From positions 1 to 59,841 of the forward strand of contig JAQXCD010000027.1 in the NCBI GenBank assembly GCA_029252045.1: DNA of 59,841 bases. Reading direction: 5' to 3'. Source of the stretch: Sulfitobacter sp. (lineage in GTDB: Bacteria; Pseudomonadota; Alphaproteobacteria; Rhodobacterales; Rhodobacteraceae). The position numbers and the translations under genes were made by a program. The notes under the pieces are model-generated. The model saw nothing but the letters and a program-made list of their open reading frames with translations, was not told the origin of the DNA and searched no databases. Positions 42,983 to 59,841 of this stretch are shown piece by piece; within the stretch, counting starts at the first letter, position 1, and each line of letters starts with the position of its first letter.

Positions 42983-43752
42983 TGAAATTCTCTGCAAACC
43001 TCGGGTTTCTCTACACCGACCTGCCGCTGCCAGATGCGATCCGCGCGGCCAAGGCAGACGGGTTTGACGCGCTAGAGTGTCACTTTCCCTATGATACACC
43101 GGCGCAGGTGATGCGTGATGCGTTGCATGAAACCGGTCTGCGGATGCTGGGGCTCAACACATGGCCGGGGGACCGTGCCGCGGGGGATTTCGGCCTTGCC
43201 GCCCTGCCCGACCGCCGCGACGAGGCCCGCAAGGAAATTGCCCGCGTGGTGAACTATGCCGCCGCCGCAGGTGTCGGGGCAGTACATGTCATGGCGGGGC
43301 GCACAGTTGGCGATGCGGCAGCTGAGAGCTGCTTTCGCGACAACCTGAACCACGCCTGTGATCTGGCCGCAGCACAGGGCCTTACCGTTCTGATCGAGCC
43401 GATCAATACCCGTGATGTAGCCGGCTATCACCTCTGCCGGACGGATCACGCAGAGCGGATCATAGACGATCTGGCCCGCCCCGAGCTGAAGATCATGTTT
43501 GACTGCTATCACATGCAAATCATGCAGGGCGATCTGGCGAAAACTGTTGAGCGTCTGCTACCCAAGATCGGGCATATCCAGATTGCTGCTGTGCCGGATC
43601 GTGGCGAACCCGACAGCGGCGAGGTGGATTACCGCTGGCTGCTGGGGCAGATTGCTGAATTTGGATACGAGGGCCATATTGGCGCCGAATACCGCCCCCG
43701 CGCCACCACGCAAGGCGGGCTGGGTTGGATGAAAACCCTCGCTAGAGCGTAA
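42982..43752 (+). CDS. otnI: 2-oxo-tetronate isomerase (hydroxypyruvate isomerase family)
   Basis: 256 residues of the Hyi-type TIM barrel. Metal and catalytic residues are in LIEPINTRDVAGYHL (Glu), MFDCYHMQIMQGD (Asp, His) and IGAEYRPRA (Glu). It converts 2-oxo-tetronate to 3-oxo-tetronate. The ATG at 42982 overlaps the otnC stop (TGATG), which fixes the start over one four codons upstream. It is the last gene of the operon and overlaps the convergent ThDP enzyme gene by 11 bp. Confidence 0.92.
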   Translation: MKFSANLGFLYTDLPLPDAIRAAKADGFDALECHFPYDTPAQVMRDALHETGLRMLGLNTWPGDRAAGDFGLAALPDRRDEARKEIARVVNYAAAAGVGAVHVMAGRTVGDAAAESCFRDNLNHACDLAAAQGLTVLIEPINTRDVAGYHLCRTDHAERIIDDLARPELKIMFDCYHMQIMQGDLAKTVERLLPKIGHIQIAAVPDRGEPDSGEVDYRWLLGQIAEFGYEGHIGAEYRPRATTQGGLGWMKTLARA

Positions 43753-45301
43753 TCTCGATCAGGTTCGGACCGCCACCGGTCAGCCCGTCCTCCAGTGCCG
43801 CCTCCAGCGCCTCGCAGGTTTCGACCCGCTGTGCCTCAACCCCCATAGAGCGGGCCATCTGCACCCAATCCAGCGCAGGACGATCAAGGCTGAGCATGTC
43901 AATCGCGCGGGGGCCCGGGTTGCCAACGCCCACATTTGTCAGCTCACCGCGCAGGATCTGATAGCTGCGGTTGGCGAAAATCAGCACGGTGATATCCAGA
44001 TTTTCACGGGCCATCGTCCAAAGCGATTGCACCGTGTACATCGCCGATCCATCACCCGACATGCACATCACTTTGCGGTCAGGGCAGGCAATTGCGGCCC
44101 CAATCGCCGCAGGCATCGCATAGCCGATAGAGCCGCCGCAATTGTTGAGCCAAGTATGCGCAGGCGCGCCTTTGGTCGCGGGCGAAAACGCGCGGCCTGT
44201 GGTCACGGATTCGTCTACGACGATGGCCTGTTCCGGAATGGCACGGGCAATGACAGCGGCGAGAGTATCAAGGTTAATCGGGCCCGTCGGCCGGTCAGGC
44301 ATGGACGCCTCAACCACATGGGCGGGGGCGGTATCCTCTGCGCCTGTCGCGTCGCGCAATGCTTCTAGTGCCGCAGTAAGGTCCGCGCTGGAATGGGCCA
44401 GCGTGGTGATCTGTGCCCCGTCACGCGTGAGGATTGCAGGCTTGTCCGGATAGGCGAAAAACCCGATAGGCGCGCGCGCACCCACAAGAACGATACGCTT
44501 GAACGGCTCGAGCACCTTAAGGGCGATATCAATCGGATAAGGCACACGATTGACAAAGACCCTTCCCGCGCCGCGCTCCAGCCGGGCGTTGGACCATTCC
44601 GATAGCAGTTTACAGCCGATCTTGGCCGCAATCTGGCCCGCAATCTTCAGGTTGTTTTCAGTCAGTGCGCGCCCACCCAACAGCAGCAGTGTCTCTTCGC
44701 CGCCCAGCGCAGTGGCGGCTGTTTCAAGTTGGGCAGCATCAAAGGGCGCAGGCGCTGGCATCTCTGCTGCTTCCTGTGCAACGCCGCCTCCGTTCCACGC
44801 CGTATCACTTGGCAGGATCAGCGATGCAATCTGGCCCGGCGCGACCATGGCCGCCTGAATTGCAGAAACCGCATCCTTGCCCACATCCGCCGCCGATTTC
44901 GAGCTGTGGACCCAATGGGACACCGGACGCGCAATCCCCTCTATGTCGGAGGTCAACGGCGCATCCAGCTCGATATGGGTCGAGGCATGTTCACCGATGA
45001 TATTCACCACACCGGAGCCTGCCTTTTTTGCGTTGTGAAGGTTGGACAGACCATTGGCCAGACCGGGCCCAAGATGCAGCAGCGTCGACGCGGGCTTGCA
45101 TGCCATCCGGTAGTACCCATCCGCCGCCCCCGTCGCTACACCCTCTTGCAGGACCAGCACCGAGCGCATGCCGGCGATGTGATCCAGCGCCGCGACAAAG
45201 TGCATCTCGGACGTGCCGGGATTTGTAAAACAAGTGTCGACCCCATTGGCGAGCAAGGTGTGCACAAGGCTTTCGGCGCCATTCATTTTCGTCTCGGTCA
45301 C
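43742..45301 (-). CDS. Thiamine diphosphate-dependent enzyme (acetolactate synthase/benzoylformate decarboxylase-like)
   Basis: 519 residues with the three-domain ThDP fold. The activating glutamate is in LVLQEGVATGAADGYYRM. The ThDP/Mg motif starts MCMSGDGSAMYTVQSLW and ends in a single Asn (IFANRSYQ). The N-terminus ANGVDTCFTNPGTSEMHF is typical of a widespread acetolactate-synthase-like group of unproven function. A GTG at 45301 overlapping the ligase stop (GTGA) is the favoured start; ATG 45286 is the alternative. With an acyl-CoA ligase upstream, decarboxylation or lyase activity on an acyl-CoA (for example 2-hydroxyacyl-CoA or oxalyl-CoA type) is possible but not shown. Confidence 0.8.
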   Translation of the reverse strand: MTETKMNGAESLVHTLLANGVDTCFTNPGTSEMHFVAALDHIAGMRSVLVLQEGVATGAADGYYRMACKPASTLLHLGPGLANGLSNLHNAKKAGSGVVNIIGEHASTHIELDAPLTSDIEGIARPVSHWVHSSKSAADVGKDAVSAIQAAMVAPGQIASLILPSDTAWNGGGVAQEAAEMPAPAPFDAAQLETAATALGGEETLLLLGGRALTENNLKIAGQIAAKIGCKLLSEWSNARLERGAGRVFVNRVPYPIDIALKVLEPFKRIVLVGARAPIGFFAYPDKPAILTRDGAQITTLAHSSADLTAALEALRDATGAEDTAPAHVVEASMPDRPTGPINLDTLAAVIARAIPEQAIVVDESVTTGRAFSPATKGAPAHTWLNNCGGSIGYAMPAAIGAAIACPDRKVMCMSGDGSAMYTVQSLWTMARENLDITVLIFANRSYQILRGELTNVGVGNPGPRAIDMLSLDRPALDWVQMARSMGVEAQRVETCEALEAALEDGLTGGGPNLIEITL

Positions 45302-46866
45302 GTCGGTTCTTTCTCCCAATAGGGGATGCGGAGTTCTTTCTTGAGTATTTTTCCGATGGTGCTGCGCGGAAGTGTTTCGCGGATTTCGACCGCTGACAAC
45401 CGCTGGCTTTTACCAAGGGTTGCGTTGGCCCGATCGCGGATATCCTCGGCGCTGCGGGTTGCCCCTTCGCGCAGTACGACCAGGCCCAGCGGCGTCTCGC
45501 CCCATGCATCGGACGGCACACCAATCACGGCAGCATCTGTCACGTCCGCATCGGCCAGCAGAACCAGCTCCAGATCATTGGCGTAGATGTTCAAGCCACC
45601 GGAGATAATCATATCCTTCTTGCGGTCCGACAGGGTCAGAAAGCCATCGGCATCAAATGAGCCCATATCGCCGGAGCGGAAATAGACCTCGCCCGCCTGA
45701 TTACGCCAGATGTAGTCGGAGGTCAGGTCATCGCGGCCATAGTACCCAGCCATCATTGTAGGCCCACGGCCGCAAATCTCGCCCACCTCACCCAGAGGCA
45801 CTTCGTGGCCTGCCGCATCGATGAGGCGGATGTCGTTTCCGGGGGCCAGCTTGCCCACGGTGTGCAGCTTGCTCGGGTTTTCGTCTGCGACCAATACCGT
45901 CACCCCGCCGCCCTCTGTCAGGCCATAATATTCCACCAGCTTGCCGGGGAAGCGGGCCAGCACATCCGCCTTCAACGCCGCACGCAAGGGCGCAGAGGTA
46001 GAGAACTTGACGCGCATGGAGGACAAATCAAAGCTGTCGAAATCCGGCACATCCATGATGCGTTTGTATTGCACAGGCACCAGCATCGTGTGGGTGATCG
46101 CCTCTTGCTCGACGATCTGCAGGTATTCGCGGGCGTCGAATTTGGGCATCAGATACACGGTGGAGCCACCAAAAAGTGTCGGCAAAAACGCTACAATCGT
46201 TGTGTTGGAATAGAGCGGCGTGGAGATCAGCGTGCGCGCGTTATCGTCATAACCGTTGGGCGTGACCCGGTCCATTTGCGCAGCGCGCATCTGATGGTTG
46301 TGCAAAATGCCTTTGGGCGTGCCCGTGGTGCCAGAGGAATAGATCAGGTTGAAGGCATCCGACATCGCAATCGGGATCAACGGATCGGTAGTGGCAGCAC
46401 TGGCCAGCGTTGCCTCGTAATCCGCAAAATCAGCGTGCTCAAAATCAATTGCAACACGCACCATTGGCAGCTCAGCAATGAAGTCTGCAAGCAGGTGCAA
46501 ATACTGCTCCGCCACAAAAACCGCACGCGCACCGCTGTCTTCCAGCATTTTGCGCAGCGCATCCGGCGAGGCCATGGAAGACAGCGGCGTAGCGCAGCCC
46601 CCGGCCCGCACGATGCCCATAAACAGCTCGGCGTAGGCGATGGAGTTGGCCGACAGGATCGCGACGTTATCGCCTTTGCCTACCCCCATATCCAACAGGG
46701 CATTCGCAACACGGTTGAGCCGCAGATCAAACGCGCCCCATGTGATGTGCTGTTCACCGCAGACAAGTGCGGTCGCATCGGGATGGGCAGCAGCGTTGGT
46801 GCGCAAGCGGTCAACAATTGTAACCATGGAGGACGGATCGGAAATCGGGGGGGATATTGTGAGCAT
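45298..46866 (-). CDS. AMP-dependent acyl-CoA synthetase/ligase
   Basis: 522 residues of the acyl-adenylate family. LIYSSGTTGTPKGILHNHQ is the P-loop-like motif, VEYYGLTEGGGVTVLV the A5 region, YFRSGDMGSFDADGFLTLSDRKKD the A7/A8 hinge and LPRSTIGKILKKELR the catalytic lysine. The substrate is not evident. It lies 3 bp after the fused TRAP permease and overlaps the ThDP enzyme, so the imported acid is probably activated here. An alternative start is ATG 46827. Confidence 0.88.
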   Translation of the reverse strand: MLTISPPISDPSSMVTIVDRLRTNAAAHPDATALVCGEQHITWGAFDLRLNRVANALLDMGVGKGDNVAILSANSIAYAELFMGIVRAGGCATPLSSMASPDALRKMLEDSGARAVFVAEQYLHLLADFIAELPMVRVAIDFEHADFADYEATLASAATTDPLIPIAMSDAFNLIYSSGTTGTPKGILHNHQMRAAQMDRVTPNGYDDNARTLISTPLYSNTTIVAFLPTLFGGSTVYLMPKFDAREYLQIVEQEAITHTMLVPVQYKRIMDVPDFDSFDLSSMRVKFSTSAPLRAALKADVLARFPGKLVEYYGLTEGGGVTVLVADENPSKLHTVGKLAPGNDIRLIDAAGHEVPLGEVGEICGRGPTMMAGYYGRDDLTSDYIWRNQAGEVYFRSGDMGSFDADGFLTLSDRKKDMIISGGLNIYANDLELVLLADADVTDAAVIGVPSDAWGETPLGLVVLREGATRSAEDIRDRANATLGKSQRLSAVEIRETLPRSTIGKILKKELRIPYWEKEPT

Positions 46867-46869
46867 CGG

Positions 46870-48864
46870 TCAGGCCACTCGTGGATCGTCTTTATTTGCT
46901 TGCCACGCAATAAAGACCGGGAATGCACAGAACGCAGCACCAACAGCGAAAGACCCCGCATAGCTCAGCGGCAGAAGCGCAGTCTCGGGCTTGGCGATGA
47001 GCACACCACCGATGAACAGCAATATTCGCATCGGGTAGCCCAGCGGCCCTTCCAGCGGACCGACAAGGCTAATGTAGCCTTGCAGCGCAGACGAGATAAG
47101 CGCGACACCGGTCAGCGCGCAGGTAAGTGCCACGACAACTTCCCATGCAGGCGCCTGACCGATCAGCGCCGGGTTGAGGACAAAGAAGAAGGGCGCGATG
47201 TAGATGACACCACCCAGTCGCATTGCCTCGAACCCCGTGGCAATCGGGTTGGACCCCGCCATGGTAGAGGCCGCAAAAGCGCCCAGCGCCACAGGTGGTG
47301 TGATAAAGCTGACCATGCCCCAGTAAAGGATGAACAGGTGCACGGCGAGTTGGTTCAGCCCACCCGCCTCAAGCGCGGGGGCCAGCACGACGGCAAGGAA
47401 AATGTAGCAAGCCGTAACTGTCATACCCATGCCAAAGATAAATGCGGTCAGCGCGCCCATGCCCAGCAGGACCAACGTGTTGTCCCCTGCCATAAACACA
47501 AGCTCGTTCACCAGCGTCCCCGCAAGACCGGTCGCAGAGAAGGAGCCGACAATCAGGCCCACACCCAGCAAGATCGCTGTAAGCTCGGCCAGTCCCATGC
47601 CGACACCAACGATCATGTTGCCCAGACGTTGCTTGTTCAGGCGGAACCGCGCGCGGAACTGGTTGACCATCAGCAGCAGAGCCGTCGCATAGAACGGTGC
47701 AGAGGATTCCTGCCGCAGGCCGATCATCATATAGAGCAGCAGGGCAAAGACGAAGATATAAGGCCAGCCTTCGGCCATGACCGCACGCAGTTGCGGCAGG
47801 TCAGGTTTGGGCAGGCCGCGCAGGCCCCGTTTGGCGGAATAGGCGTCGATGCCCGTGAACAGGCCCCAATAAAACAGAATGCTGGGGATGGCCGCCGCCA
47901 GTGCGATTTCCACATAGGGGCGCGAGAGGAACGAGGCCATGATGAACGCCGTGGCGCCCATGATGGGCGGCATCAGGACGCCACCGGTTGATGCGCAGGC
48001 TTCGGTTGCCGCCGCTGTCTTGGCGCTGAACCCTGTCTTGCGCATCGCGGGAATGGATACAGCGCCCGTCGTAAGCACGTTCGAGATAACCGAGCCGGAC
48101 ATAGACCCCATGAATCCGCTGGCAAAAATCGAGACCTTGGCCGCACCGCCGCGATAACCGCCAACCATACCAAGCGCGAGATCATTAAAGAATTGCCCGC
48201 CACCTGTGCGTTGCAGAACCGCACCAAACAGGATGAAGCCGATAACCACACCGCCGAAAGCTTTCATCGGGATGCCGAAGGAGCTTTCGGCAGAATAAAT
48301 GTGATAGGGAACCGTTTGCATAAACGTACTCTGGAAGCCCGAGAACGGATCCGGCACATGGCCTGCAAAGGTAGGATAGAACGCAAACAGCGTCACAATC
48401 AGGAACAGGACCAACCCGCCCGCGCGGCGTGTTGCCTCAAGCACCAGAAAGAAGAACACCACCGAGACATATTGCGCGGCCTCGGGTGCCGCGTATTCCC
48501 ACCCCTGCGACAGGTTTTGCTGTGCCGTTTGAACCAGATAGCCGGTGCATCCGAGGGCAATCGCGAAGAGCGCCCAGTCCAGCAGTGAAGGCACGCCACC
48601 TTTGCCACCGCGCATTTGGAAAATCAGGAAGCTGAGTGCCAGATACACCCCGCCCAGCAAATAAAGATACCGGCCCTCGATCAGGACAATGCCCGCAATC
48701 TGAAGGTTGAACAGCTGATTTACAACCAGCACCAGTGACATCAATGTACCGATAATCACCACCCAGCGGGCAGGGCCTGCCAAACGCTCTGACGGAGTCT
48801 CGCCGTCAATCGCTACTGCTTCGAGGCCCTTGGCGTTAGAGGTCGCTGTGATCTGGTCAGTCAT
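46870..48864 (-). CDS. TRAP transporter fused permease (4TM+12TM), TAXI type
   Basis: 664 residues. The N-terminal third corresponds to the small (DctQ-like) subunit and the rest to the large permease; about 16 hydrophobic segments are visible. Typical segments are GGGQFFNDLALGMVGGYRGG, GFMGSMSGSVISNVLTTGAV and TGGVLMPPIMGATAFIMASF. Fusion of the two subunits is the rule for TAXI-type TRAP systems. ATG 48864 is preferred because it gives a short cytoplasmic N-terminus. It is followed directly by the acyl-CoA ligase. Confidence 0.92.
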   Translation of the reverse strand: MTDQITATSNAKGLEAVAIDGETPSERLAGPARWVVIIGTLMSLVLVVNQLFNLQIAGIVLIEGRYLYLLGGVYLALSFLIFQMRGGKGGVPSLLDWALFAIALGCTGYLVQTAQQNLSQGWEYAAPEAAQYVSVVFFFLVLEATRRAGGLVLFLIVTLFAFYPTFAGHVPDPFSGFQSTFMQTVPYHIYSAESSFGIPMKAFGGVVIGFILFGAVLQRTGGGQFFNDLALGMVGGYRGGAAKVSIFASGFMGSMSGSVISNVLTTGAVSIPAMRKTGFSAKTAAATEACASTGGVLMPPIMGATAFIMASFLSRPYVEIALAAAIPSILFYWGLFTGIDAYSAKRGLRGLPKPDLPQLRAVMAEGWPYIFVFALLLYMMIGLRQESSAPFYATALLLMVNQFRARFRLNKQRLGNMIVGVGMGLAELTAILLGVGLIVGSFSATGLAGTLVNELVFMAGDNTLVLLGMGALTAFIFGMGMTVTACYIFLAVVLAPALEAGGLNQLAVHLFILYWGMVSFITPPVALGAFAASTMAGSNPIATGFEAMRLGGVIYIAPFFFVLNPALIGQAPAWEVVVALTCALTGVALISSALQGYISLVGPLEGPLGYPMRILLFIGGVLIAKPETALLPLSYAGSFAVGAAFCAFPVFIAWQANKDDPRVA

Positions 48865-48942
48865 GGGTTCATCCGCATCAGGTGGGAAACAGGAAAGACC
48901 GGCCCGCAAAATTGCGGGCCGGACACATGTGCTTTGCAGGTC

Positions 48943-50079
48943 TTAGAACGTAACTGGAAAGCCGCCGTCCTTAAGGGCCTTACGGCGGGCCTCGTCCCAT
49001 GCAGCCTCCCAATCAGCGGGTGCCGCTGCTTTGGTTGCTTCCCATGCGGCGATCAGGGCTGCCTGACGTGCGACCAGCTGGTCGTTATGCGCCTGCGCTT
49101 CGCCATTCCAGACGCCCGCTTCGGTGAAGTATTTGATCGCGCCGTTGTGGTACGGGACAACCCATTTCATGTTCTGCTTGTCCAGCGCCCAACCGCCGAT
49201 ACCGGGCGAGTTGCCGTCATACTTCGGGAACAGTTCAACCATCGCTTTGGTCATGTTGTAGACCAAGGCCTCGTCTGTCGTATCCATGGCGGTAAGAACG
49301 GGATAGGCGTATCCAGCCCCATGATAGCCGTCGGTTCCATCAATGCCCGCACCAACTGACGCTTTGTTGAGCGTGAAGAAGGGTGCAATCTCTTGCATTG
49401 CGGCAAAGCCTTCGGTGTTCGCAGGATCAATCGGGGGCCAGAACAAGCCGCGCGGGCCTGCCTCGGCCTCATAAGCCTTGCCGGAGTTGGTTGACGCAAA
49501 TGCCGCGTCAACCTGACCTTCGATCAGACCCGTCCAGCTTGCACCAAAACCGCCGAAATCAACGCGCTCGACATCATCCCATGTCAAACCGCCATAGGCC
49601 AGATAGGCCTCTGTGTTCACGTTCAGCGCGGGGGAGCCTACGATATAGGCAACGCGTTTGCCTTTCAGGTCTGCATAGGTCTCGATGCCCAGATCACCAG
49701 CGACGCCAACCGACAGGTTGATCGCGCCACCGTTGTTGGCCATCAGAACGCGCACTGCCTGCGGGCCCCAGTTCTCGGCACCGAAGTCAAACACGCCTTC
49801 TTGCGCCATAAAGCTACCGCCGACGCCGGTTGCCGAAAACTCTACCCGCCCCTGACGCAGTGGCTCGGTGCGCGAGATGTCGTTCTTGCCGGGCAGAACA
49901 CGCAGGTTCACGCCTGTGGCATCCTGCAACGCAGCACCGATTGCGACGGATTGGTTATAGCCCGCCGATCCGGTATCATATGCCGTCCAGTTCAACTGCT
50001 TTGGCAGATCAATGTCCTGAGCAACAGCCAGAGTGGCTGACATGCTGAGAACTGCAAATGTAGAAGCGATATATTTCAT
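48943..50079 (-). CDS. TAXI-family TRAP transporter solute-binding protein
   Basis: 378 residues with a signal peptide ending near TLAVAQD. The mature part has TAXI features: YDTGSAGYNQSVAIGAAL at the ligand-binding N-lobe, then GKRVAYIVGSPALNVNTEAYL. A good ribosome-binding site (GGGAGGAAA) precedes ATG 50079. It heads the minus-strand operon with the fused permease, ligase and ThDP enzyme. The ligand is unknown. Confidence 0.9.
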   Translation of the reverse strand: MKYIASTFAVLSMSATLAVAQDIDLPKQLNWTAYDTGSAGYNQSVAIGAALQDATGVNLRVLPGKNDISRTEPLRQGRVEFSATGVGGSFMAQEGVFDFGAENWGPQAVRVLMANNGGAINLSVGVAGDLGIETYADLKGKRVAYIVGSPALNVNTEAYLAYGGLTWDDVERVDFGGFGASWTGLIEGQVDAAFASTNSGKAYEAEAGPRGLFWPPIDPANTEGFAAMQEIAPFFTLNKASVGAGIDGTDGYHGAGYAYPVLTAMDTTDEALVYNMTKAMVELFPKYDGNSPGIGGWALDKQNMKWVVPYHNGAIKYFTEAGVWNGEAQAHNDQLVARQAALIAAWEATKAAAPADWEAAWDEARRKALKDGGFPVTF

Positions 50080-50393
50080 AGTTTCCTCCCAAAAAGTCCG
50101 TATTTTTGCCCACGTCTGGCGTGGCAAATCGGTCATCGCGGATGCGTTTTCTCCCGAAACGGCGTTCCGCTGTGTGGAAAAGGATACGAACCTTAACTTT
50201 CAGGAGTCAACAAAGTTCACGGTATTTCCGGGCTGGTTTGTATGTTTCATCGGATTTCCGTCATGTCGGCACGATTGCGTTTCGCATAGCAAAACGCAGG
50301 CGGCCCTCGCCCCCGAAAACACCTACGCGCTTTACGCTGGACCTTGGCGGTATGTGCAATAGAACGGGGTATTCCTGCCATCCGGAGCCCTGC
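50080..50393. other. 314-bp divergent promoter region between the TAXI operon and mnmH
   Basis: No gene is supported. An inverted repeat TGCGTTT-N9-AAACGCA (50276-50298) is a possible operator. The mnmH reading frame stays open upstream to 50106 but that part has no rhodanese similarity, so it is regarded as non-coding. Confidence 0.45.
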
Positions 50394-51440
50394 ATGATCC
50401 GCCAGACCCTCACATCACTATCGTCCATAGCCGGAATCGGGGCCGATACGATCATTGATGTGCGCGCACCACTCGAGTTTGCAGAGGACCATATTCCCGG
50501 CGCGATCAACCTTCCGGTGCTGAGCGATGACGAACGCGCGCAAGTCGGCACAATCTACACCCGACAGAGCGCCTTTCTGGCGCGCAAGGTGGGTGCCGCA
50601 CTGGTGGCCGCAAATGCCTCGCGCCACTTGCAAGGACCTCTTGCGGATAAGCAGGGCGATTGGCAGCCGTTGGTCTATTGCTGGCGCGGCGGGCAACGCT
50701 CAGGCTCGTTTGCGACGATCCTTGATCAGGTTGGGTGGCGCGTGCATTTGATTGAAGGGGGCTATCGCAGTTACCGCAAGCAAGTCACCGCACGTCTCTA
50801 CGACACGCCGCTCCCGCACCGGATCAGATTGATTGACGGCGGGACGGGCACTGCAAAGACGGCGCTCCTGCACCATCTGAGAGACGCTGGCGCACAAATT
50901 CTGGATCTTGAGGGATTGGCGGCACATCGCGGATCACTGTTCGGATCGCTCGATATCGCACAGCCCTCGCAAAAGATGTTTGAATCCCGCCTTGCTGCTG
51001 AACTGGAGGCACTGGATCCCGCGCAAATCACTTGGGTTGAAGGAGAGAGCAGCAAGATTGGCGGACGTATGATACCACCCGCGCTTTGGGCTGCAATGAT
51101 TGCAGCGCCCCGAATTGAGGTCAGCGCGCCGATTGCCGCCCGCGCCGCCTTTCTTGCCACCGCCTATGCCGATCTGACGCAAGACCGTGAAAAATTGAAC
51201 CAACAGATTGGCCAACTGTCGAGCTATCATGCTGCGGCCACGATCACGGGCTGGCATGCACTGGCAGAGGGTGCGGATTGGGAGACGTTGGCAGGGGAGT
51301 TGATGTCGCAACACTACGATCCGCGGTATACGAAATCACAGGCGCGGGCGGATCAGACTCCCGAACAGTTCACGCTGGAGGCACTCGACCCCGAGACACT
51401 CGCCGACGCCGCACGCAGCCTAATCGAACAGTTCAGCTAA
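50394..51440 (+). CDS. mnmH: tRNA 2-selenouridine synthase
   Basis: 348 residues. Residues about 1-125 are a rhodanese domain with the catalytic cysteine (C96) in VYCWRGGQRSGS, and residues about 140-348 a P-loop domain with Walker A GGTGTAKT at about 149-156. MnmH (also called SelU or YbbB) replaces sulfur with selenium in the wobble uridine of certain tRNAs, using selenophosphate. ATG 50394 is chosen because the rhodanese fold starts there. It converges on selD with an 8-bp overlap, placing the selenophosphate user beside its maker. Confidence 0.93.
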   Translation: MIRQTLTSLSSIAGIGADTIIDVRAPLEFAEDHIPGAINLPVLSDDERAQVGTIYTRQSAFLARKVGAALVAANASRHLQGPLADKQGDWQPLVYCWRGGQRSGSFATILDQVGWRVHLIEGGYRSYRKQVTARLYDTPLPHRIRLIDGGTGTAKTALLHHLRDAGAQILDLEGLAAHRGSLFGSLDIAQPSQKMFESRLAAELEALDPAQITWVEGESSKIGGRMIPPALWAAMIAAPRIEVSAPIAARAAFLATAYADLTQDREKLNQQIGQLSSYHAAATITGWHALAEGADWETLAGELMSQHYDPRYTKSQARADQTPEQFTLEALDPETLADAARSLIEQFS

Positions 51441-53598
51441 CGCGGATCGGGCCTGAGCCTGCCGACAATGCTCCGATGATGTGCCCTTCGCAACCTTGGT
51501 CACGCAGTGCTTCCAATGCCGTCTCGGCGGCATCGCGAGGCAGAGCAGCGAGAAGGCCGCCTGCTGTTTGCGGATCATGCAAAAGCGGATCGGGGAGGCC
51601 GGTTGTCAGCGCGTCAGCCGTATTGGCAGCCAGCAAAGACGAAAACACCCCTGCGTCAGACAGCTCACGCGCGCCTTCATAGACAGGTACCTTATCACGC
51701 CATATCTCGGCCTGCACACCGGACGCGGCACAAATCGCCTGAACATGGCCCGCAAGGCCAAAGCCTGTAACATCCGTCATGGCATGCGCGTTCTTCAGAA
51801 TGCCCGCCGCGATATGCTGGGGCTGCTCCATCATAGCCAGCGTTCGGGCCACAATCCGCGCAGGCGCCTTGCCCGCCATATGCGCAGCAAGAATCACGCC
51901 ACTGCCGATGGGTCGTGTGAGCAACAGCACATCCCCCGCTATCGCTCCCGCGACCGTGATCGGCATATCAGGCCGTATGCCTGTCACTGTAAAACCAATC
52001 GTCAGCTCCGCGCCCATAGTGGTATGTCCCCCCACAATAGTGGCACCAGCGACCTCGAAAACAGCGCGCGCGGCATCGTTGATTTCACGCAGTGTGCGCT
52101 CTTGAAGCCCTGCCGACATACGCGGCAGGATAATCGTGGACAAGGCCACTTGGGGCGCTGCTCCCATGGCCCAGACGTCGCCCAGCGCATGAACGGCCGC
52201 AATGCATGTCATCTGGACAGGGTCTTCGATAAAGGCGCGCAGGTGATCAGTGCTCAGGACTTGGAAGCTACCGTTCGGCCCCCGCAGAATAGCAGCATCA
52301 TCGCCCGGCCCCGCAATCACGTCAGCGTGCAGCGGAGCGGTGCCCGTACCAATCGCGCGGCCCAGAACGGCGCCACCCACCTTGGCACCACACCCGCCGC
52401 ACAGCGGGACGGATTGCGCATCATCTGCCACACCGCCTGCGACTACTTTCGGCAAGGCGGACGTCTCCATCACCGGAAGCTGGTCAAGCTTGGCCATAAA
52501 CGCACGGTCGATCCGGTCTTTCCACTGCCACAGCAGAGGAGCCGACGGCGCAAAGCCGTATTTCTCGGCCATCGCGGATTTGCCACCAAGCGAGATGAGT
52601 TTGAGATATGATTTCTGCGGGCGGAAGGGTTTAAGAGGCCCCCCTGTGAGAGCCGCGCGCAAGTTGTGATGGAGCACAGGCGCCGCGCGCACGGCAAAAA
52701 CACCCGCCTTGGGGCGCGGCGCAAAAGGCATGTGGGCACAATCGCCGACAGCAAACAGGGTCGCATCCCCCTGAACGCGCAACTCCGGATCGGTGAGGAT
52801 GAAGCCCTCATGCAGAGGCAAATCCGTCTGTGCAATCCAGCCATGTGGAAAGGCGCCAGCTGCGCCCACACATAACGCAGCCTCAACAGGAGGGTGCCCT
52901 GCAATCACAACTTCGCCTGCGCGGATTTCGGTAATCTGCGCGTTGGGGAGGATGGTGATGCCCAAATCAGTCATAGCAATATGCAGCTTGCTACGCGCCT
53001 GCGGCCCGACACCAGAAATCTCCGGTCCCGCCTCGATCACAGTCACTTGCGGAGTGGCGCCGCTGTTGCGCAGGGCAAATGCCATTGCCATTGCCAACTC
53101 GCAGCCCGCAACGCCGCCGCCAATCACGACGATCTTCGCGGGCTTGGTGCCGCTTTGCACGGTCTCCAGAAACACACGCCATGTTTGCGCGTAGACATCC
53201 AATGGCTTGGCACCGACCGCGTGTTCGGCGAAACCTATAATATCCATGCGCGCAGTGATGCCGATATCAATAGAGGCAACGTCATAAGCAACAGGCCCGC
53301 GCCCTTCCACATGCACAACGCCCGCCTTGCGGTCGATGCCGGTGGCGTGGCTCAGGATCAGGCGCGCGCCTGCAAAGCGCGCAAGGCGGACCAGATCAAT
53401 CTCTAACGTGTCGCGGCTGTAGTGGCCTGCGATATGCCCCGGCAACATGCCGGTGTAAGGCGCTGTCGGGCCGGGGTTGATTACCGTCAGCCGCGCGCCC
53501 GGTAGCGGGTCCATGCCCCATTTGCGCAGCACCAGCGCGTGCGCATGCCCGCCCCCAACTAGCACCAGATCACGGGTGTAAGGGACGGTGTTCAGCAT
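51433..53598 (-). CDS. selD: Fused FAD-dependent oxidoreductase / selenide, water dikinase
   Basis: 721 residues. Residues 1 to about 370 form a pyridine-nucleotide-disulfide-type flavoprotein (LVLVGGGHAHALVLRK; a second dinucleotide motif IVVIGGGVAGCELAMAM at about 156-172). Residues about 385-721 are SelD: the catalytic pair is Cys403 and Lys406 in CGGCGAKVGG, followed by GPGDDAAILRGPNGSFQV, STDHLRAFIEDP and the late HAMTDVTGFGLAGH. The active-site residue is encoded as Cys, not Sec. SelD makes selenophosphate from selenide and ATP for both SelA and MnmH; the fused flavoprotein may supply reduced selenium. It is separated from the selenoprotein gene by a terminator, so it has its own promoter. 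Confidence 0.94.
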   Translation of the reverse strand: MLNTVPYTRDLVLVGGGHAHALVLRKWGMDPLPGARLTVINPGPTAPYTGMLPGHIAGHYSRDTLEIDLVRLARFAGARLILSHATGIDRKAGVVHVEGRGPVAYDVASIDIGITARMDIIGFAEHAVGAKPLDVYAQTWRVFLETVQSGTKPAKIVVIGGGVAGCELAMAMAFALRNSGATPQVTVIEAGPEISGVGPQARSKLHIAMTDLGITILPNAQITEIRAGEVVIAGHPPVEAALCVGAAGAFPHGWIAQTDLPLHEGFILTDPELRVQGDATLFAVGDCAHMPFAPRPKAGVFAVRAAPVLHHNLRAALTGGPLKPFRPQKSYLKLISLGGKSAMAEKYGFAPSAPLLWQWKDRIDRAFMAKLDQLPVMETSALPKVVAGGVADDAQSVPLCGGCGAKVGGAVLGRAIGTGTAPLHADVIAGPGDDAAILRGPNGSFQVLSTDHLRAFIEDPVQMTCIAAVHALGDVWAMGAAPQVALSTIILPRMSAGLQERTLREINDAARAVFEVAGATIVGGHTTMGAELTIGFTVTGIRPDMPITVAGAIAGDVLLLTRPIGSGVILAAHMAGKAPARIVARTLAMMEQPQHIAAGILKNAHAMTDVTGFGLAGHVQAICAASGVQAEIWRDKVPVYEGARELSDAGVFSSLLAANTADALTTGLPDPLLHDPQTAGGLLAALPRDAAETALEALRDQGCEGHIIGALSAGSGPIRVS

Positions 53599-53708: not shown

Positions 53709-53738
53709 AAACACCGCCCCAAACGCGGGGCGGTGTTT
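53709..53738 (-). terminator. Strong terminator after the selenoprotein gene
   Basis: AAACACCGCCCC (53709-53720) pairs perfectly over 12 bp with GGGGCGGTGTTT (53727-53738) around a 6-base loop. It begins 3 bases after the minus-strand selenoprotein stop at 53742. The T-rich sequence TTTGCGTTTG follows on the minus strand. It ends the selA-to-selenoprotein operon and separates it from selD. Confidence 0.85.
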
Positions 53739-53741
53739 AAT

Positions 53742-54263
53742 CTAGTTTTGCGTCAGCGCCGCGATGATCTCCTTAAGAGCTTGCGCCGCTTTAATGCGCA
53801 TTTCATCGTCGGTTGCATCCTGTATCGGATGCGGCACCAGTACATAATGTGCGCCGTTCATACCCAGCGCGCGTCGCTGGCTTTCTGCAGCCTCTCCAAA
53901 CTCGCTGGAAGCGATAGAGACTGATGGGATCCCCTGGGTTTCAAACCAGACATTGTCGTGCATACTGCACGTTGTGCAGGATCCTCAGTCGGCCAATGCT
54001 TCGACCAGATAGGTGCAGGTGTCGCGGATTTCGTGCCGCAAGGCATCGGGACACGGCTTGGCAAACGTGGGCTTGGTAAAACGGCGCACCGTCACATCGG
54101 GCGCTTTTTGTTTCAGCAGTTTTTCCAGCTCGTCCAGCATGATGTTGCCGCGCGGCTTGCTGATGTCCAGCAGGCCGATCACACCAGACAGCGTGCCGCT
54201 GCGCGGGGTCACTTGCCGCTCAACCGGTACACGTTCGTCAGTGGGGTCGAGAATAATTGTCAT
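53742..54263 (-). CDS. UGSC-family selenoprotein (in-frame TGA at 53985-53987 read as selenocysteine)
   Basis: Read through one in-frame TGA, the gene encodes 173 residues with selenocysteine at position 93. The first 92 residues (to YLVEALAD) and the last 73 (from MHDNVWFETQGIPSVS) are in the same frame; nine intervening codons give U-G-S-C-T-T-C-S. This is the UGSC motif after which a family of (seleno)proteins of unknown function is named; I recall the family name only. Position 93 follows a helix, as in redox-active sites, and Cys96 and Cys99 could form a selenenylsulfide. An ideal ribosome-binding site (AAAGGAGG) precedes ATG 54263. The late VLVPHPIQDATDDEMR is probably conserved. Neighbours are selB, tRNA-Sec and a thioredoxin-like protein 24 bp upstream. 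No signal peptide: cytoplasmic. Confidence 0.93.
53965..53979 (-). promoter_or_regulatory. SECIS-like hairpin directly after the Sec codon
   Basis: CTGCAC-AAC-GTGCAG is a perfect 6-bp stem with a 3-base loop, beginning five bases after the TGA on the coding strand. Bacterial SECIS elements are coding-region stem-loops immediately 3' of the UGA that bind the C-terminal domain of SelB. The position fits. The hairpin also encodes the UGSC(TTC) residues, so its conservation would serve both protein and RNA. Confidence 0.7.
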
Positions 54264-54287
54264 ACATTCCTCCTTTCTGATCTCAGC

Positions 54288-55877
54288 CTAGCCGAGGTCG
54301 ATCTTTTTGGAAACAGATTGTGAGCCGACAGCCCCCGTGGCCCAGCCATGAAACGCCGACGAGAATTTGCCGGCGTCCGACCCTGCAACCACAATGTGAA
54401 TGAACTCGGTACCCGCAAACTTGGGAACAGATCGGGCCAGAGCCTCTGCTCCCATCGCCTTGGCCGCTTCGGGGGAGATGCCCGCGCCAGAATACGCATC
54501 TTGCACCATTTCCGCCAGTGGACGGGTTGTCACCTCCTGAATACGGTCGCGCAGACGGTCCTTTGAATACTCACCTTCGCGGGTCAGCGTATCGATATGT
54601 TCGGGACACACGACCAACAGCGCGTCAACGGGCAGGTTGCGCAACTTGGGCAAAAACACCCCTTCAAGGCCCATGCCAAGCGAGCCCGCGATCTGGTCGG
54701 GCGCCCGCGAAGTCTGATCGACGATATGTACGGGCCCGCCTGTCATCGCAAAAAGTGTGACCACTGAGTCCTCCGGCTCAAACCCGCGTTCCACATGCAG
54801 CGCGGGCCAGGGGGAGCGTTCCTCCCATTCTGCAAAGCACATGGTGAACTTCATGGGATTACCAAGGGTTGACCGCTCTACCCCACCCGTGGCCGCGCCG
54901 CCGACGTTTCGCACGACAAGACGCAGCGCGCGGCCGATTGTGGCATTGGCGCGGTTACCAGCCCCCAATGCACCCAGCTTCATGTTCATCCCGATTTTGT
55001 GCCGGATCGGGCCGTTTATGATCATCACAGGGGCGGCCCCCATCGTGGTTGCGGTGACTCCGTGAATGTTGAATTCATCGGTACATGCAGCCTCGACCGC
55101 GGCGATGATGACGGACATATATTCCGGCTTGCAGCCTGCCATCACAGCGTTGATTGCGATCTTTTCGACCGTGGCGATGCCCATGTTCGGGGGGACAGTT
55201 GCGATAACGTCCTGCGCGTCGCGGTGTGTGCCTGCCAACATCCGCAACACGCGCTCTGGCGTTGGTGGTACCAAGGGCAAGCCATCGGAAAAGCCCTGAT
55301 CAAACATGAACTCGGCCACGTCATCCGCGCTGGCAATGTCGATCTTGCGGGCGCGGATCGGGCTACCGTCCGCCTCTGCGCGCAACTTGTCATAGACGCT
55401 TGGATCGAGGTGCTTGGAGCCGCAACCGGGGCGCCAAGCGGGCAAAGCCTCCCAGTCTATTTGCGCGGCGGCGAGACCTGTTTGTGCGCTCATATCAGCA
55501 GCGAGCGTTTCCCAATCGGTGCGAATAAAACCTTCGAAGCGGGATAGAACAACGCCAGATTCATTCATCCAGAATACGGACGGTACACTTTCGATGTCCC
55601 AATCAAAGGCGGCTTTGCAGGTTCGGTCATCCAGCACCGGCATGCTGAGGCTGTGGCGCGCTGCAAAACTGGCATTCGTCGGCCCTGATTGGGAAACCAG
55701 CATTACCTCGACCTGCCCCGCGTGTGCCTTATGCAACGCCTCCAGAACGGGGGCCGCGGTATTGCAAGTTTCGCAATCGTCTTTGACAAAGCAGACGAGG
55801 GTGTTGCGCTGGGTCGGAAATGCGTGGGCCTGCCCCGACAGATCATCCAATGAAAACGCTGGCTGTTGGTTGTTCAT
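54288..55877 (-). CDS. Thioredoxin-like protein with a large uncharacterised C-terminal domain, in the sel operon
   Basis: 529 residues. Residues about 1-135 are a thioredoxin/peroxiredoxin-like fold with CxxC at C35-C38 (VKDDCETCNTAAPVLEAL) and a cis-proline-like segment (IESVPSVFWM). Residues about 190-529 form a large domain I cannot assign; it is rich in glycine and contains GLPLVPPTPERVLRMLAG, APVMIINGPIRHKIG and a C-terminal FSSAFHGWATGAVGSQSV. It lies between tRNA-Sec and the selenoprotein gene (24 bp gap), so the thioredoxin-like part could reduce the selenenylsulfide of the selenoprotein. That partnership is inferred. ATG 55877 is chosen: longer readings run back through the tRNA gene. 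Confidence 0.8.
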   Translation of the reverse strand: MNNQQPAFSLDDLSGQAHAFPTQRNTLVCFVKDDCETCNTAAPVLEALHKAHAGQVEVMLVSQSGPTNASFAARHSLSMPVLDDRTCKAAFDWDIESVPSVFWMNESGVVLSRFEGFIRTDWETLAADMSAQTGLAAAQIDWEALPAWRPGCGSKHLDPSVYDKLRAEADGSPIRARKIDIASADDVAEFMFDQGFSDGLPLVPPTPERVLRMLAGTHRDAQDVIATVPPNMGIATVEKIAINAVMAGCKPEYMSVIIAAVEAACTDEFNIHGVTATTMGAAPVMIINGPIRHKIGMNMKLGALGAGNRANATIGRALRLVVRNVGGAATGGVERSTLGNPMKFTMCFAEWEERSPWPALHVERGFEPEDSVVTLFAMTGGPVHIVDQTSRAPDQIAGSLGMGLEGVFLPKLRNLPVDALLVVCPEHIDTLTREGEYSKDRLRDRIQEVTTRPLAEMVQDAYSGAGISPEAAKAMGAEALARSVPKFAGTEFIHIVVAGSDAGKFSSAFHGWATGAVGSQSVSKKIDLG

Positions 55878-55946: not shown

Positions 55947-56040
55947 TGGCGGAGGTGGATGGGAATCGAACCCACCACACGCGTTAAAGCGCGTCCATGG
56001 TTTTGAAGACCAGGGAAGCCACCAGACTCCAATCACCTCC
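55947..56040 (-). tRNA. selC: tRNA-Sec, anticodon TCA
   Basis: About 94 bases including an encoded CCA, starting GGAGGTGATTGG at 56040. The acceptor GGAGGTG pairs with CACCTCC, followed by G and CCA. The anticodon loop CTTCAAA holds TCA (56006-56004). A long variable arm is formed by ACGCG and CGCGT around CTTTAA. The T-loop is TTCGATT. These features (UCA anticodon, length, long variable arm) are diagnostic for bacterial selenocysteine tRNA. It lies 14 bases after the selB stop and 69 bases before the thioredoxin-like gene, in the same transcription unit. Confidence 0.95.
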
Positions 56041-56054: not shown

Positions 56055-57941
56055 CTAGCAAGACGCAGCGGAGGGGGGAACCGGAATAACATCTGTCATT
56101 TGCCGTATGTCGTCGATGCGGACCGCCAGCCCGCATTTGTCGAAATACTCAAGCACAGGCACAATGACCTTGCGGGTTGTGGCCAACGTAGTACGCGCTT
56201 GCGACGTGGTGAAATCTTGCGGTGGCGGAAAGGCAATACGGAGCTGTTCTGCGGCGGCCATCAGGCTGTCGCGATGGAACAGCAAGGTCTGCTTGAGCGC
56301 GATATTATGGAGCGTGATAACGCGGCCCGTATCAAGCAGAAGTACCAAAAGGTCGGGATCGGCACCTCCCTCCAGAAGCGGGGGATTGGTCATACAGTGG
56401 TGCGAAATACGGGCTTCGATTTCGTCCATGCGGTTCTGTTGTGGCAGCGTCAGGTGGGACAACGGATTGTGCCCCGACAGCGCCAGTCCCGCGGGGTGCA
56501 CATGGATCTGATCCTCACGCTGTAAGGCTTCCAAGACGTATGTCATCAAGATTGGAGATACGTCATGCAGAGCTGTAACGGCGCGTTGCGCGCGCGGGTG
56601 AAGGGGGTATCTGCGGTGATAATCCTCCAGAGCGTCTATTACCGCTTGCTTCGCCCCCTTAATGATTTGCCGTGGCGCAGCCGATGTAAGCGCTACGTCC
56701 ACAAACGAAGTCCTCAGATTGTCGCGAACCTCTGCCTCGGCTTGCCGCGATAAACGTGCGACCTCTACCAGAGATGCTGTACCCCCATCACGCTGGCAAA
56801 GGCTGTGCGCGATTTCAGCGGGCGAGCGTGTTGTGATCGCATCCAATAGCGTTTGCCTGACTTTGTCACCTGTGCGCGTGGCTGTCGCATGTGTATCCAG
56901 TATCTCGGCACCCGCAATCGTCTCCGGCGGGGATAGGCGTCGCAAAATAGCGCGCTGTCCCTCGTACCCGCAAACTGCACGCGCAAAGCGGAGTTGCGCC
57001 AAGCCTGCCTGCGGCCTTGCCAACAGGTGAACCGTCGCGACCTCATGCGAAGTGCCTAAAAGCACCCGCACCTTTTCCATATGCTTGATTGGTTTCAAGA
57101 CCTCGGGCAGCGGGGTGAGCAAGACGTCCATACACATGCTTGCGGCTCCCTGCCCTGCCGCGCACAAGACATCACCGCGCGCAATATCATCAACTGCAAT
57201 GCCGCGCAGATTCACCGCCACACGGGTTCCGGAAGCCACCCCGGAGCGCGCAACGCCTCTGCATTGAAGGCCCCGAAGCGTGGCACGTTGCCCTTTAGGG
57301 TGAAGGATAACTTCCATATCTGCCGACAAGTCCCCTCCCAGCAAGGTCCCTGTTATGATCGTCCCCCGTCCCGCAACCGAAAACACCCGGTCAATTGGCA
57401 GCATTGGCATCCGCGGACCGGCGGGTTCGGGGATGTTGGTCAGCAAATTTTGTAATGAAACTTCAAGATCGCTGATGCCTTGGCCACTATGTGCGGAACA
57501 GATGGTGATAGAAGCATCAGAAAAGGGTGTGCCTGCCAGCGTGGCGGCCAGTTCAGCGATACAGCTTTGCAGATCGGCAGGGCAAGCAAGCTCGGCCTTT
57601 GTGACCGCAATCACTGCACGAGTGATACCCAACTGTTGAGCAATTGCCAGATGCTCATGGGTTTGAGCCTGTATGCCATCGGTCGCAGAGACCACCAGCA
57701 AAACTGCCTGTGCACCTGATGCACCTGCGACCATGGCCTGAATGAAATCCTCGTGACCGGGGGCATCAACAAAGTCGACTGTGCCCTGTTCATAATTTCG
57801 GTAGGCGTAGCCTGGTATGATGGACAGCCCACGCGCCTTTTCCTCGGGCAGACGGTCTGTCCGGACTGCAGTCAGGGCATGCACCAGTGTTGTCTTGCCG
57901 TGATCGACATGCCCGATCACGACCAAGCAGCAACTCTTCAT
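56055..57941 (-). CDS. selB: Selenocysteine-specific elongation factor
   Basis: 628 residues. The N-terminal GTPase (P-loop GHVDHGKTTLVHALT, switch regions with DAPGHEDFIQAMVAG, guanine specificity near VTKAEL) is EF-Tu-like, followed by two beta-barrel domains. The C-terminal about 220 residues are winged-helix repeats that recognise the SECIS hairpin. It delivers Sec-tRNA(Sec) to UGA codons. The start overlaps the selA stop by 4 bp (ATGA). Confidence 0.96.
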   Translation of the reverse strand: MKSCCLVVIGHVDHGKTTLVHALTAVRTDRLPEEKARGLSIIPGYAYRNYEQGTVDFVDAPGHEDFIQAMVAGASGAQAVLLVVSATDGIQAQTHEHLAIAQQLGITRAVIAVTKAELACPADLQSCIAELAATLAGTPFSDASITICSAHSGQGISDLEVSLQNLLTNIPEPAGPRMPMLPIDRVFSVAGRGTIITGTLLGGDLSADMEVILHPKGQRATLRGLQCRGVARSGVASGTRVAVNLRGIAVDDIARGDVLCAAGQGAASMCMDVLLTPLPEVLKPIKHMEKVRVLLGTSHEVATVHLLARPQAGLAQLRFARAVCGYEGQRAILRRLSPPETIAGAEILDTHATATRTGDKVRQTLLDAITTRSPAEIAHSLCQRDGGTASLVEVARLSRQAEAEVRDNLRTSFVDVALTSAAPRQIIKGAKQAVIDALEDYHRRYPLHPRAQRAVTALHDVSPILMTYVLEALQREDQIHVHPAGLALSGHNPLSHLTLPQQNRMDEIEARISHHCMTNPPLLEGGADPDLLVLLLDTGRVITLHNIALKQTLLFHRDSLMAAAEQLRIAFPPPQDFTTSQARTTLATTRKVIVPVLEYFDKCGLAVRIDDIRQMTDVIPVPPSAASC

Positions 57942-59329
57942 CCGGCTATCACGGCTTGAAATGCCGCAACGATTGCCGGAACATCACTGTCGCGGATCGT
58001 CCGCATATCCAGCAACACCCTCCCCCGCTCAATGCGTCCAATGACAGGCGTTTTGGCAGCGCGCAAATGTGCAGTCAGCTGATCAGCCGATATTCCATCT
58101 ATCTCGCAGGACACCGCGACGCTCGGCAATCCCCGCTCGGGCAGGGCACCCGCACCCACCTGCGCTATTGCCTCCTCGACGGATACGTTGCTGATGCCGG
58201 CTCCCTTCAGTTCGCGCGCCAGATTGGCGCCACGGGCAGCAATCTCTGCAAGCGGTGCAGACAGCATCGCCAGCACCGGAATCTCCTTCAACGGATCATG
58301 GGGTGGCAAGTACAAGCGCAGCGTTGCCTCAAGCCCGGCCAATGAGACTTTGTCAATCCGGACAGCGCGCATCAATGGATGGGACTTGAGTTGCGCAATC
58401 AAATGCCGTTTGCCAGCGATAATCCCCGCCTGAGGCCCACCGAGCAGTTTGTCACCAGAAAACATAACCAGATCGACACCGCTGCTTATGATATCCGCGA
58501 CAACCGGCTCGTCTCCAAGCCCGAAAGGTGACAGGTCAATCAGCACACCACTGCCCAGGTCTTCGATGAGCATGACCTCTTTTTCATCTGCAAGCTTGGC
58601 AAGGTCCTGACGTTTTGGTGAGGATGTGAAGCCGACAATCCTGAAATTACTGGTGTGGCTTTTCAGAAGAACTGCGGTTGTCTCATCAATGGCTGCTTCA
58701 TAGTCCGAAAGGCGGGTCTTGTTGGTGGTCCCCACCTCCCGGAGCACCGCACCGCTCTGAACAATCACATCCGGCAAGCGGTATGATCCACCAATCTCGA
58801 TCAGCTCACCGCGCGACGCGACAACGCTTTTGCCCGCGGAGGTGGCGACAAGGGACAGCAGGACCGCAGCAGCGCAGTTGTTTACAACCACGGCGGCCTG
58901 TGCCCCCGTGAGGTGACATATAAGGCGCTCGATGTGGCTGTGTCGCGAGCCCCGCTTGCCGGTGGCAAGGTCAAATTCAAGGTTGGAAGGCGCAATGGCA
59001 ACATCCTGCATTGCTTGGATAGCGTGTGAAGCCATGGGCGACCGCCCGAGGTTCGTGTGGATAATGACGCCGGTGGCGTTGATGACAGTACGTAGTGAGG
59101 GCGTCCGATCGGCCTTGATCTGCTCGGCGATTGCCTGAGAAAATTCAGAACTGTCAAATTCCGGAAGCACGGTCTGTTTACCTGCAACAATATCAGAGCG
59201 GAGCTCTGCTAGGCTGTTCCGAAGCGCCGTTACTGTTTCGGAACGGCTGAACTGCCGGATGAGGCTCATTATGTTTGGAGTGTTTAGGAGAGCTTCTAAA
59301 GCCGGAAGGTCTTTTGCGTTTCCGGTCAT
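57938..59329 (-). CDS. selA: L-seryl-tRNA(Sec) selenium transferase
   Basis: 463 residues of the PLP-dependent SelA family. VINATGVIIHTNLGRSPMA and the PLP lysine (about K294) in SGDKLLGGPQAGIIAG are diagnostic. It converts seryl-tRNA(Sec) to selenocysteyl-tRNA(Sec) using selenophosphate. ATG 59329 follows a CGGAGC ribosome-binding site; a longer upstream reading lacks family similarity. It heads the operon selA-selB-selC-thioredoxin-selenoprotein. Confidence 0.96.
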   Translation of the reverse strand: MTGNAKDLPALEALLNTPNIMSLIRQFSRSETVTALRNSLAELRSDIVAGKQTVLPEFDSSEFSQAIAEQIKADRTPSLRTVINATGVIIHTNLGRSPMASHAIQAMQDVAIAPSNLEFDLATGKRGSRHSHIERLICHLTGAQAAVVVNNCAAAVLLSLVATSAGKSVVASRGELIEIGGSYRLPDVIVQSGAVLREVGTTNKTRLSDYEAAIDETTAVLLKSHTSNFRIVGFTSSPKRQDLAKLADEKEVMLIEDLGSGVLIDLSPFGLGDEPVVADIISSGVDLVMFSGDKLLGGPQAGIIAGKRHLIAQLKSHPLMRAVRIDKVSLAGLEATLRLYLPPHDPLKEIPVLAMLSAPLAEIAARGANLARELKGAGISNVSVEEAIAQVGAGALPERGLPSVAVSCEIDGISADQLTAHLRAAKTPVIGRIERGRVLLDMRTIRDSDVPAIVAAFQAVIAG

Positions 59330-59841
59330 ATGAGCTCCGTTAATTGTGCAAGATAGCTGGTGAATGGCAGTAAGGGTCTTGCGCCAACGGTAGTGGCAGG
59401 AGTAGGCACCGTCGAGGTTCATTTTCGTATTCTTGGAATGCGTGGAGATTGATTTTGGTGGTCAAACTAGACGCAAATGGCGCAAGTACGGACGTCGGTG
59501 ATATTATTATGAGGCGTCGTCCCATTCGGTGGCAAACAAATTTCTGGGCTAACGAACTGGCTCCCGAAAAGTCTTGGTAGTATTTCCGAGCTTTGAACAG
59601 GATGCGGGAAGCTCCCGTTGCGAGCTCGGCACATTAGTGGATGTATTAGCAGAATATTGTGCTGGAGCGATACGTGGAGAAAGCGGAACCAAATTAGGTT
59701 TGTTATTTTTGGTTATCGGATCAGCAGTTTTCTTTGTAAAATTGTTTAAGATTTTGTTTTATTAAACGACAAACGCCGCGTGCTTTTCAGCGCGCGGCGT
59801 TTGTGTTGTATCATCGATTAGAGAGATACACATGAGGAACT
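59330..59841. other. Right-end intergenic region upstream of selA
   Basis: The selA promoter should lie here but no clear -10/-35 pair stands out. An open frame at 59574-59765 (plus, TTG start, 63 codons) ends in a hydrophobic segment (LGLLFLVIGSAVFFV) but has weak start signals, so I do not call it as a gene. A strong hairpin follows at 59769-59804. The last bases contain an ATG at 59832 that might begin a gene running out of the window. Confidence 0.4.
59769..59804. terminator. Strong terminator-like hairpin near the right end
   Basis: ACAAACGCCGCGTGC pairs over 15 bp (one G-U) with GCGCGCGGCGTTTGT around TTTTCA. The flanks are T-rich on both strands only weakly, so direction cannot be fixed. 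It may end the short plus-strand frame or a minus-strand gene beyond the window. Confidence 0.6.

Follow-up and report, generated by a model that had tools for sequence, protein, structure and literature searches.

The locus described here raises the question of whether a TGA codon that divides an open reading frame (ORF) in Sulfitobacter sp. encodes selenocysteine (Sec) and, if so, what the protein that contains it does. The DNA analysed, hereafter the window, is the stretch 1–59,841 of contig JAQXCD010000027.1 (assembly GCA_029252045.1; 59,841 nucleotides), and the element in question is a minus-strand gene of the UGSC family at 53742–54263. Our preferred reading, to which we would give a probability of around 0.6, is that the TGA is read as Sec and that the protein is a distant, single-domain relative of GrdB and PrdB, which would act with a partner protein to reduce a small organic substrate.

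The gene forms one frame in which 54263–53985 (92 residues and the TGA) is joined to 53984–53742 and the TGA at 53985–53987 is the sole break, as the original prediction had stated; read through, it gives a product of 173 residues before the stop, with the predicted Sec at position 93, the first residue of a UxxCxxC motif (UGSCTTC) in the context D-U-G-S-C-T-T-C-S. A ribosome-binding site, AGGAGG, stands at 54269–54274 on the minus strand, 5 nt ahead of the ATG, and no AGGAGG-like sequence precedes the first in-frame ATG downstream of the TGA (53963), which bears out the earlier statement that the upstream part has a strong site and the downstream part has none; the ORF listing contains two ORFs here, as had been expected of a standard annotation. 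The joined protein matches PF24696 over model positions 2–172 of 172 (161.6 bits, cut-off 25; E 2.5e-47) and NF041046 with 171 bits (cut-off 125), and by these family-model scores it belongs fully to the UGSC family, which is already known.

That family was published in 2008 as 'UGSC-containing protein', with the guess that it has a thioredoxin fold (accessible part of PMC2398784), and the gene is therefore no novelty in itself. It adds a member to a family that is known but uncharacterised, and the interest lies in where it is placed and in the Sec cassette. The window gene itself shows no difference from the family: it matches at full length above both cut-offs, has its Sec in the UGSC motif and, like the genes in the available portion of PMC2398784, adjoins an unnamed domain, to which it is fused in relatives. 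UGSC proteins ranked fourth by frequency among the selenoproteins of the Global Ocean Sampling data, with 8.2% of 4324 selenoprotein genes (PMC9402790, in part), and Geodermatophilaceae have UGSC-motif selenoproteins and a tRNA-Sec with the anticodon CUA (PMC5330540, in part). The original view that the biochemical function of the family is unknown agrees with the accessible parts of PMC2398784, PMC13188914, PMC9312934, PMC9402790 and PMC5330540.

The codon at the Sec column was read in 109 UGSC matches from loci L048–L158 (108 of the 111 loci), which comprise 102 distinct sequences, seven pairs representing one contig present in duplicate. The alignment gave TGA in 105 and TGC in four; one of the TGC readings (L048_9479) was an alignment slip, with TGA one codon on, and after correction by eye the column holds TGA in 106 and Cys in three (L059, L064 and L065), with no other codon. 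L064 (7809–8282) is a Cys form with an extra, unrelated in-frame TGA some 30 codons past the motif, possibly marking a broken copy, an error or something else. Whole-genome searches of 193 relatives gave exactly one TGA in 47 of 49 UGSC matches, the exceptions being a Cys form in genome G075, where the best SelB match is only at the level of EF-Tu, and, in G059, a match truncated where the contig ends. Against Sec at this column, the database proteins P0001, P0002 and P0004, which lack a stop, have Gly, Arg and Trp at position 93; these are clusters of one to three sequences, read as proteins and not as codons. The UxxCxxC motif is present in 103 of the 106 Sec-form sequences, and substitutions at the three codon positions (0.268/0.180/0.552 before the TGA and 0.225/0.165/0.609 after it) are protein-like on both sides. 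Homologues spanning both parts of the frame, the check originally proposed, were found in the Cys forms L059, L065 and P0005 and in all 13 full-length database proteins of the partner alignment A5 in which UGSC is fused to the partner's domain, every one with Cys at the Sec column.

Bacterial selenocysteine insertion sequence (SECIS) elements are stem-loops with a G in the apical loop, 16–37 nt after the UGA. The minus strand of the window has a SECIS-like stem-loop within these limits at 53957–53971 (CGUGCA-GUA-UGCACG), with a stem of 6 bp and its GUA loop 19 nt past the UGA, and such a 6-bp stem with a GUN loop, directly following the TGA, is kept across relatives. The motif CRTGCAGTNTGCAYG occurs in all 78 sequences tested (the window and 77 of the 80 loci L079–L158), and the single match of a looser stem-loop pattern in the whole of the window's own genome is the UGSC site. 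Covariation was assessed in 16 hand-picked, diverse sequences against 500 shuffles. At one stem pair, 14 of them have C-G and the other two, which are probably related, have G-C, and a second pair varies between GU, GC and AU; the swap to G-C alters the protein on both sides (Cys99 to Trp, residue 101 to Phe), and the stem is therefore kept at the protein's expense. No shuffle reached the observed covariation score and one reached the observed share of paired cells. On the other side, two of the five covariation measures were not above the shuffles (182/500 and 426/500), and stability alone is unremarkable: the window's stem is no more stable than synonymous recodings (z −0.39, p 0.36), and over the 78 sequences the mean z was −0.95, compared with −0.44 in control windows.

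The original prediction also placed the gene in an operon with selA, selB and tRNA-Sec, and matches from ARAGORN, Rfam and NCBIfam confirm all three. On the minus strand, upstream of the UGSC gene and together with the partner gene, lie selA (L-seryl-tRNA(Sec) selenium transferase, 57938–59422; TIGR00474, 581 bits, above its cut-off), selB (Sec-specific elongation factor, 56055–57941; TIGR00475, 286.9 bits, cut-off 242.25), overlapping selA by 4 bases, and tRNA-Sec with the anticodon TCA (55947–56040; ARAGORN; RF01852, 78 bits). The arrangement selA-selB-tRNA-Sec-partner-UGSC is also seen in Caulobacteraceae, Hyphomonas and other groups, and tRNA-Sec is present in 75 of the 111 loci. Among 62 genomes of the genus, 33 carry UGSC and the same 33 have a SelB match of 227–306 bits, the two standing on one contig in 31; in the 29 genomes without UGSC, the best SelB match does not exceed 203 bits, the level of EF-Tu. 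Ten of the 33 SelB matches, taken singly, fall below the family cut-off of 242 and three of these pass with neighbouring pieces; since 12 other genomes of the class score 370–455 bits, the SelB of the genus is, by this measure, a divergent type. Outside the genus, SelB occurs without UGSC in five genomes (G084, G094, G124, G131 and G172), and in G128 (77% complete) UGSC was present and no SelB was found. The genes flanking the cassette vary among Sulfitobacter species, which suggests that it moves or is lost en bloc. The family models, the exchange of TGA and Cys, the SECIS-like stem, the linkage and the co-occurrence all support the original assignment of a UGSC-type selenoprotein with Sec at position 93, and we regard the prediction that the TGA encodes Sec, made from sequence comparison, as strongly supported.

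The gene immediately upstream, here called the partner (54288–55877, minus strand; 529 residues), consists of a thioredoxin/TlpA-like domain with C35-E-T-C38 followed by a domain of about 380 residues. Its first 120 residues belong to the thioredoxin/TlpA-ResA family (AhpC-TSA/Redoxin above the cut-off, with CETC), and it is these residues, and not UGSC, that resemble thioredoxins. The second domain matches no Pfam or NCBIfam model and is probably the 'Unknown_1' of 2008; C249 is invariant in alignment A5, as are Asn and Arg residues. Among the 193 relatives, all 42 genomes that carry UGSC have a partner match below E 1e-30 and none of the 151 without it does; seven other genomes match the thioredoxin part weakly (E 1e-4 to 1e-3). 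By tblastn, the partner domain is present in 105 of the 108 UGSC loci; L127 and L128 begin at UGSC, and the partner of G181 sits on a separate contig (L063). Besides the database fusions mentioned above, fusions of UGSC to the partner domain that contain the TGA occur in L048, L050 and L052, and the AlphaFold2 model of one fusion, P0242, has a mean predicted local distance difference test score (pLDDT) of 88.3 and a predicted template modelling score (pTM) of 0.90. Paired partner genes occur in L048, L050, L052, L054 and L058, and P0244, read by eye, combines two partner domains in a single protein of 861 residues, an arrangement suggesting that the paired genes work as one complex.

What the protein might do is indicated by its likely, distant kinship with the Sec-bearing domain of GrdB/PrdB, for which our profile comparisons fall below family cut-offs yet are concordant. 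GrdB, GrdF, GrdH and PrdB belong to the glycine, sarcosine, betaine and D-proline reductases (PF07355, TIGR01917, TIGR04483); according to the part of PMC13188914 available, GrdB has the motif UxxCxxC and PrdB is homologous to GrdB. When 28 stand-alone UGSC proteins were scanned with NCBIfam, TIGR01917 matched seven (best E 5.5e-4), NF040794 six, and NF040795 and TIGR01918 three each, any family besides UGSC and GrdB matching one member each; scanned singly, six of ten stand-alone proteins matched GrdB models. Among the fused forms, the PrdB model TIGR04483 matched nine of the 61 in A5 (best E 4.1e-4) and seven of ten proteins scanned singly, eight of these ten matching PrdB or GrdB models. 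The Sec or Cys of UGSC and the Sec of the GRDB protein L166 fall in the same model column, at about 347 of TIGR01917 and 149 of TIGR04483, these positions being derived from alignment end points and accurate to about one column (about three for L060). In UGSC this region reads U-G-S-C-T-x-C ... E-x-x-G-I-P-x-V ... H-P and resembles GrdB/PrdB; UxxC(xxC) is followed in both groups by G-I-P and H-P/P-L. With hhalign, UGSC scored 32.1 against GRDB (E 3.5e-4), compared with 23.1 for the best of 35 other families, and the fused form scored 47.2 (E 1.4e-6), compared with 24.4 for the best of 34 others once the partner cluster, which contains fusions and scored 63.6, had been set aside; reversed profiles score 12–15. 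A first, smaller comparison of the fused form had given E 3.8e-5.

Against this kinship stand several results. Every GrdB/PrdB match lies under the curated cut-off (19.9 bits vs 300; 19 bits vs 602), the window's own UGSC has no GrdB/PrdB match at E ≤ 1, and none of the 28 UGSC proteins reaches E ≤ 1 with the Pfam GRDB model (PF07355). In A5, an alignment that includes seven partner proteins with a thioredoxin domain, three to seven members are also matched by thioredoxin-type families and by TIGR03759. The first, smaller hhalign comparison of UGSC with GRDB gave E 0.012 and a probability of 3.5%, and a combined alignment of UGSC and fused forms scored 34.9 against GRDB and 37.7 against the partner cluster, fusions included. 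UGSC also differs from GrdB/PrdB in consisting of the Sec-bearing domain alone, and Pfam and NCBIfam scans recognised no GrdE/PrdA-type proprotein in the partner, which carries a thioredoxin domain instead; a PF09338 search of the window's own genome was without a match, as were all the controls. A further difference from GrdB/PrdB is that the host of the window is probably aerobic. The literature covered on UGSC with PrdB, glycine reductase or fold contains no claim of such a kinship, which is no proof of absence, subscription papers being mostly outside that coverage.

UGSC and GRDB have both expanded in one alphaproteobacterial lineage. Among 96 relatives of genome G183, UGSC is present in 23 (110 matches), with eight matches each in G578, G579, G583 and G590 (L208–L223), one of those in G590 being a contig-end fragment; every listed match save this fragment has one TGA, and the lineage has up to eight GRDB matches per genome. 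Its Sec proteome is, on these counts, unusually large. The 20 neighbouring genes scanned include acyl-CoA dehydrogenases, a CoA-transferase, aldehyde and short-chain dehydrogenases, a GMC oxidoreductase and transport genes, as well as regulator, TIR and TPR-S genes, and in L214 a pyridine nucleotide-disulfide oxidoreductase adjoins a UGSC fusion. Up to eight copies with varied neighbours would fit different substrates for each copy. Elsewhere, in L055 (3935–8365), TIR_2, TPR-S and MatE genes stand immediately upstream of a partner-UGSC pair.

The fold was predicted with AlphaFold2 from 103 sequences, with the Sec of the window protein set to Cys, and the model (mean pLDDT 94.1, pTM 0.88) alternates strands at 27–33, 57–63, 85–91, 114–119 and 139–143 with helices at 39–53, 73–82, 94–109, 120–132 and 152–171, residue 93 sitting just ahead of the helix after strand 3. 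The protein is thus predicted to have a five-stranded Rossmann/flavodoxin-like sheet. The order of a thioredoxin fold is strand-helix-strand-helix-strand-strand-helix, which these five strand-helix units do not follow, and the model contradicts the guess of 2008. The best 50 of 1799 Foldseek rows, which include 41 chains at E ≤ 1e-3, are led by structures of flavodiiron/flavodoxin, SsuE, azoreductase and lumazine synthase, TIR domains and others being intermixed, and none names a thioredoxin fold; nor does any Pfam thioredoxin family match the 28 UGSC members at E ≤ 1.

On this evidence UGSC is most likely a GrdB/PrdB-like reductase. In such a reaction the selenolate of Sec93 would attack a substrate held between UGSC and the unnamed domain of the partner, Cys96 would resolve the selenium as an Se-S bond, and the partner's thioredoxin domain (C35-x-x-C38), the likely electron donor, would reduce that bond and so recycle UGSC. 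The Cys form L059 lacks Cys96 (CGSS), which tells against a uniform scheme, and the last steps may therefore vary.

One of the other explanations is that the TGA is a true stop, and that the gene is decaying or makes two short proteins. The two ORFs expected of a standard annotation would agree with this, as would the ATG of the downstream half at 53963. With TGA or Cys at that one column in all 109 matches, protein-like substitution beyond the TGA and linkage to the sel genes, we find a true stop barely credible. The guess of 2008, that UGSC has a thioredoxin fold and serves general redox or antioxidant purposes as a thiol/selenol oxidoreductase or peroxidase, has the thioredoxin domain of the partner in its favour. 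We find it quite unlikely: the confident UGSC model strictly alternates strands and helices, the best 50 Foldseek rows and the Pfam scan of 28 members (E ≤ 1) name no thioredoxin, and up to eight copies per genome would be odd for a housekeeping antioxidant.

The selenol might instead be a ligand for a metal or organometal, UGSC and its partner forming a detoxification pair comparable to Sao and MerB-like selenoproteins. The accessible part of PMC13188914 names other small selenoproteins with such proposed roles, and the invariant C249 of the partner could serve as a second ligand, but a scan of 20 neighbours at E ≤ 1e-8 gave no metal-resistance family and the superfamily matches favour GrdB/PrdB, and we hold this role to be decidedly improbable. 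An explanation that we consider unlikely, while giving it some weight, is that UGSC shares the ancestry of GrdB/PrdB and not their chemistry, and passes electrons between a thioredoxin and the unnamed domain of the partner, which would be the true catalyst. The profile evidence bears on ancestry only, and the partner is the larger component, with its invariant Cys, Asn and Arg; against this, the Sec and motif columns of UGSC coincide with the Sec of GrdB/PrdB. Returning to a GrdB/PrdB-like reductase, it is conceivable, and we suggest it tentatively, that UGSC and its partner represent a second, aerobic branch of the glycine/proline reductases, in which a minimal Sec domain works with a partner that holds the substrate and has its own thioredoxin, duplicated up to eight times per genome for different small molecules, and of which Sulfitobacter has a mobile one-enzyme cassette with selA, selB and tRNA-Sec.

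Downstream of the UGSC gene, ahead of the selD fusion, a 12-bp stem-loop at 53709–53738, from a stem-loop scan, may be the operon terminator; such sites in the region (seven, compared with 6.9 in shuffles) are not above chance. NCBIfam identifies a fusion of an NADH-dehydrogenase-like protein with SelD, selenophosphate synthase, at 51433–53598 on the minus strand, which is apparently a Cys form, and mnmH (tRNA 2-selenouridine synthase) at 50106–51440 on the plus strand, the true start of which is probably downstream of the one listed. Genes named by eye at 43742–50136 (acetolactate-synthase-like, acyl-CoA ligase, TRAP permease and solute-binding) have relatives, in clusters c17, c5, c8 and c13, that recur close to the cassette in some genomes of Sulfitobacter and Planktotalea.

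The original prediction contained neither the partner gene, nor the relationship to GrdB/PrdB, nor the fact of publication in 2008; what is added here is the predicted Rossmann/flavodoxin-like fold, the likely distant GrdB/PrdB kinship and the partner gene tied to UGSC. The genus offers a ready comparison, with the whole set in 33 of 62 genomes and none of it in the other 29. The link to GrdB/PrdB supplies a specific chemical hypothesis for the abundant UGSC proteins and points to the partner as the co-acting protein, and it could explain why selenocysteine is retained in many aquatic bacteria.
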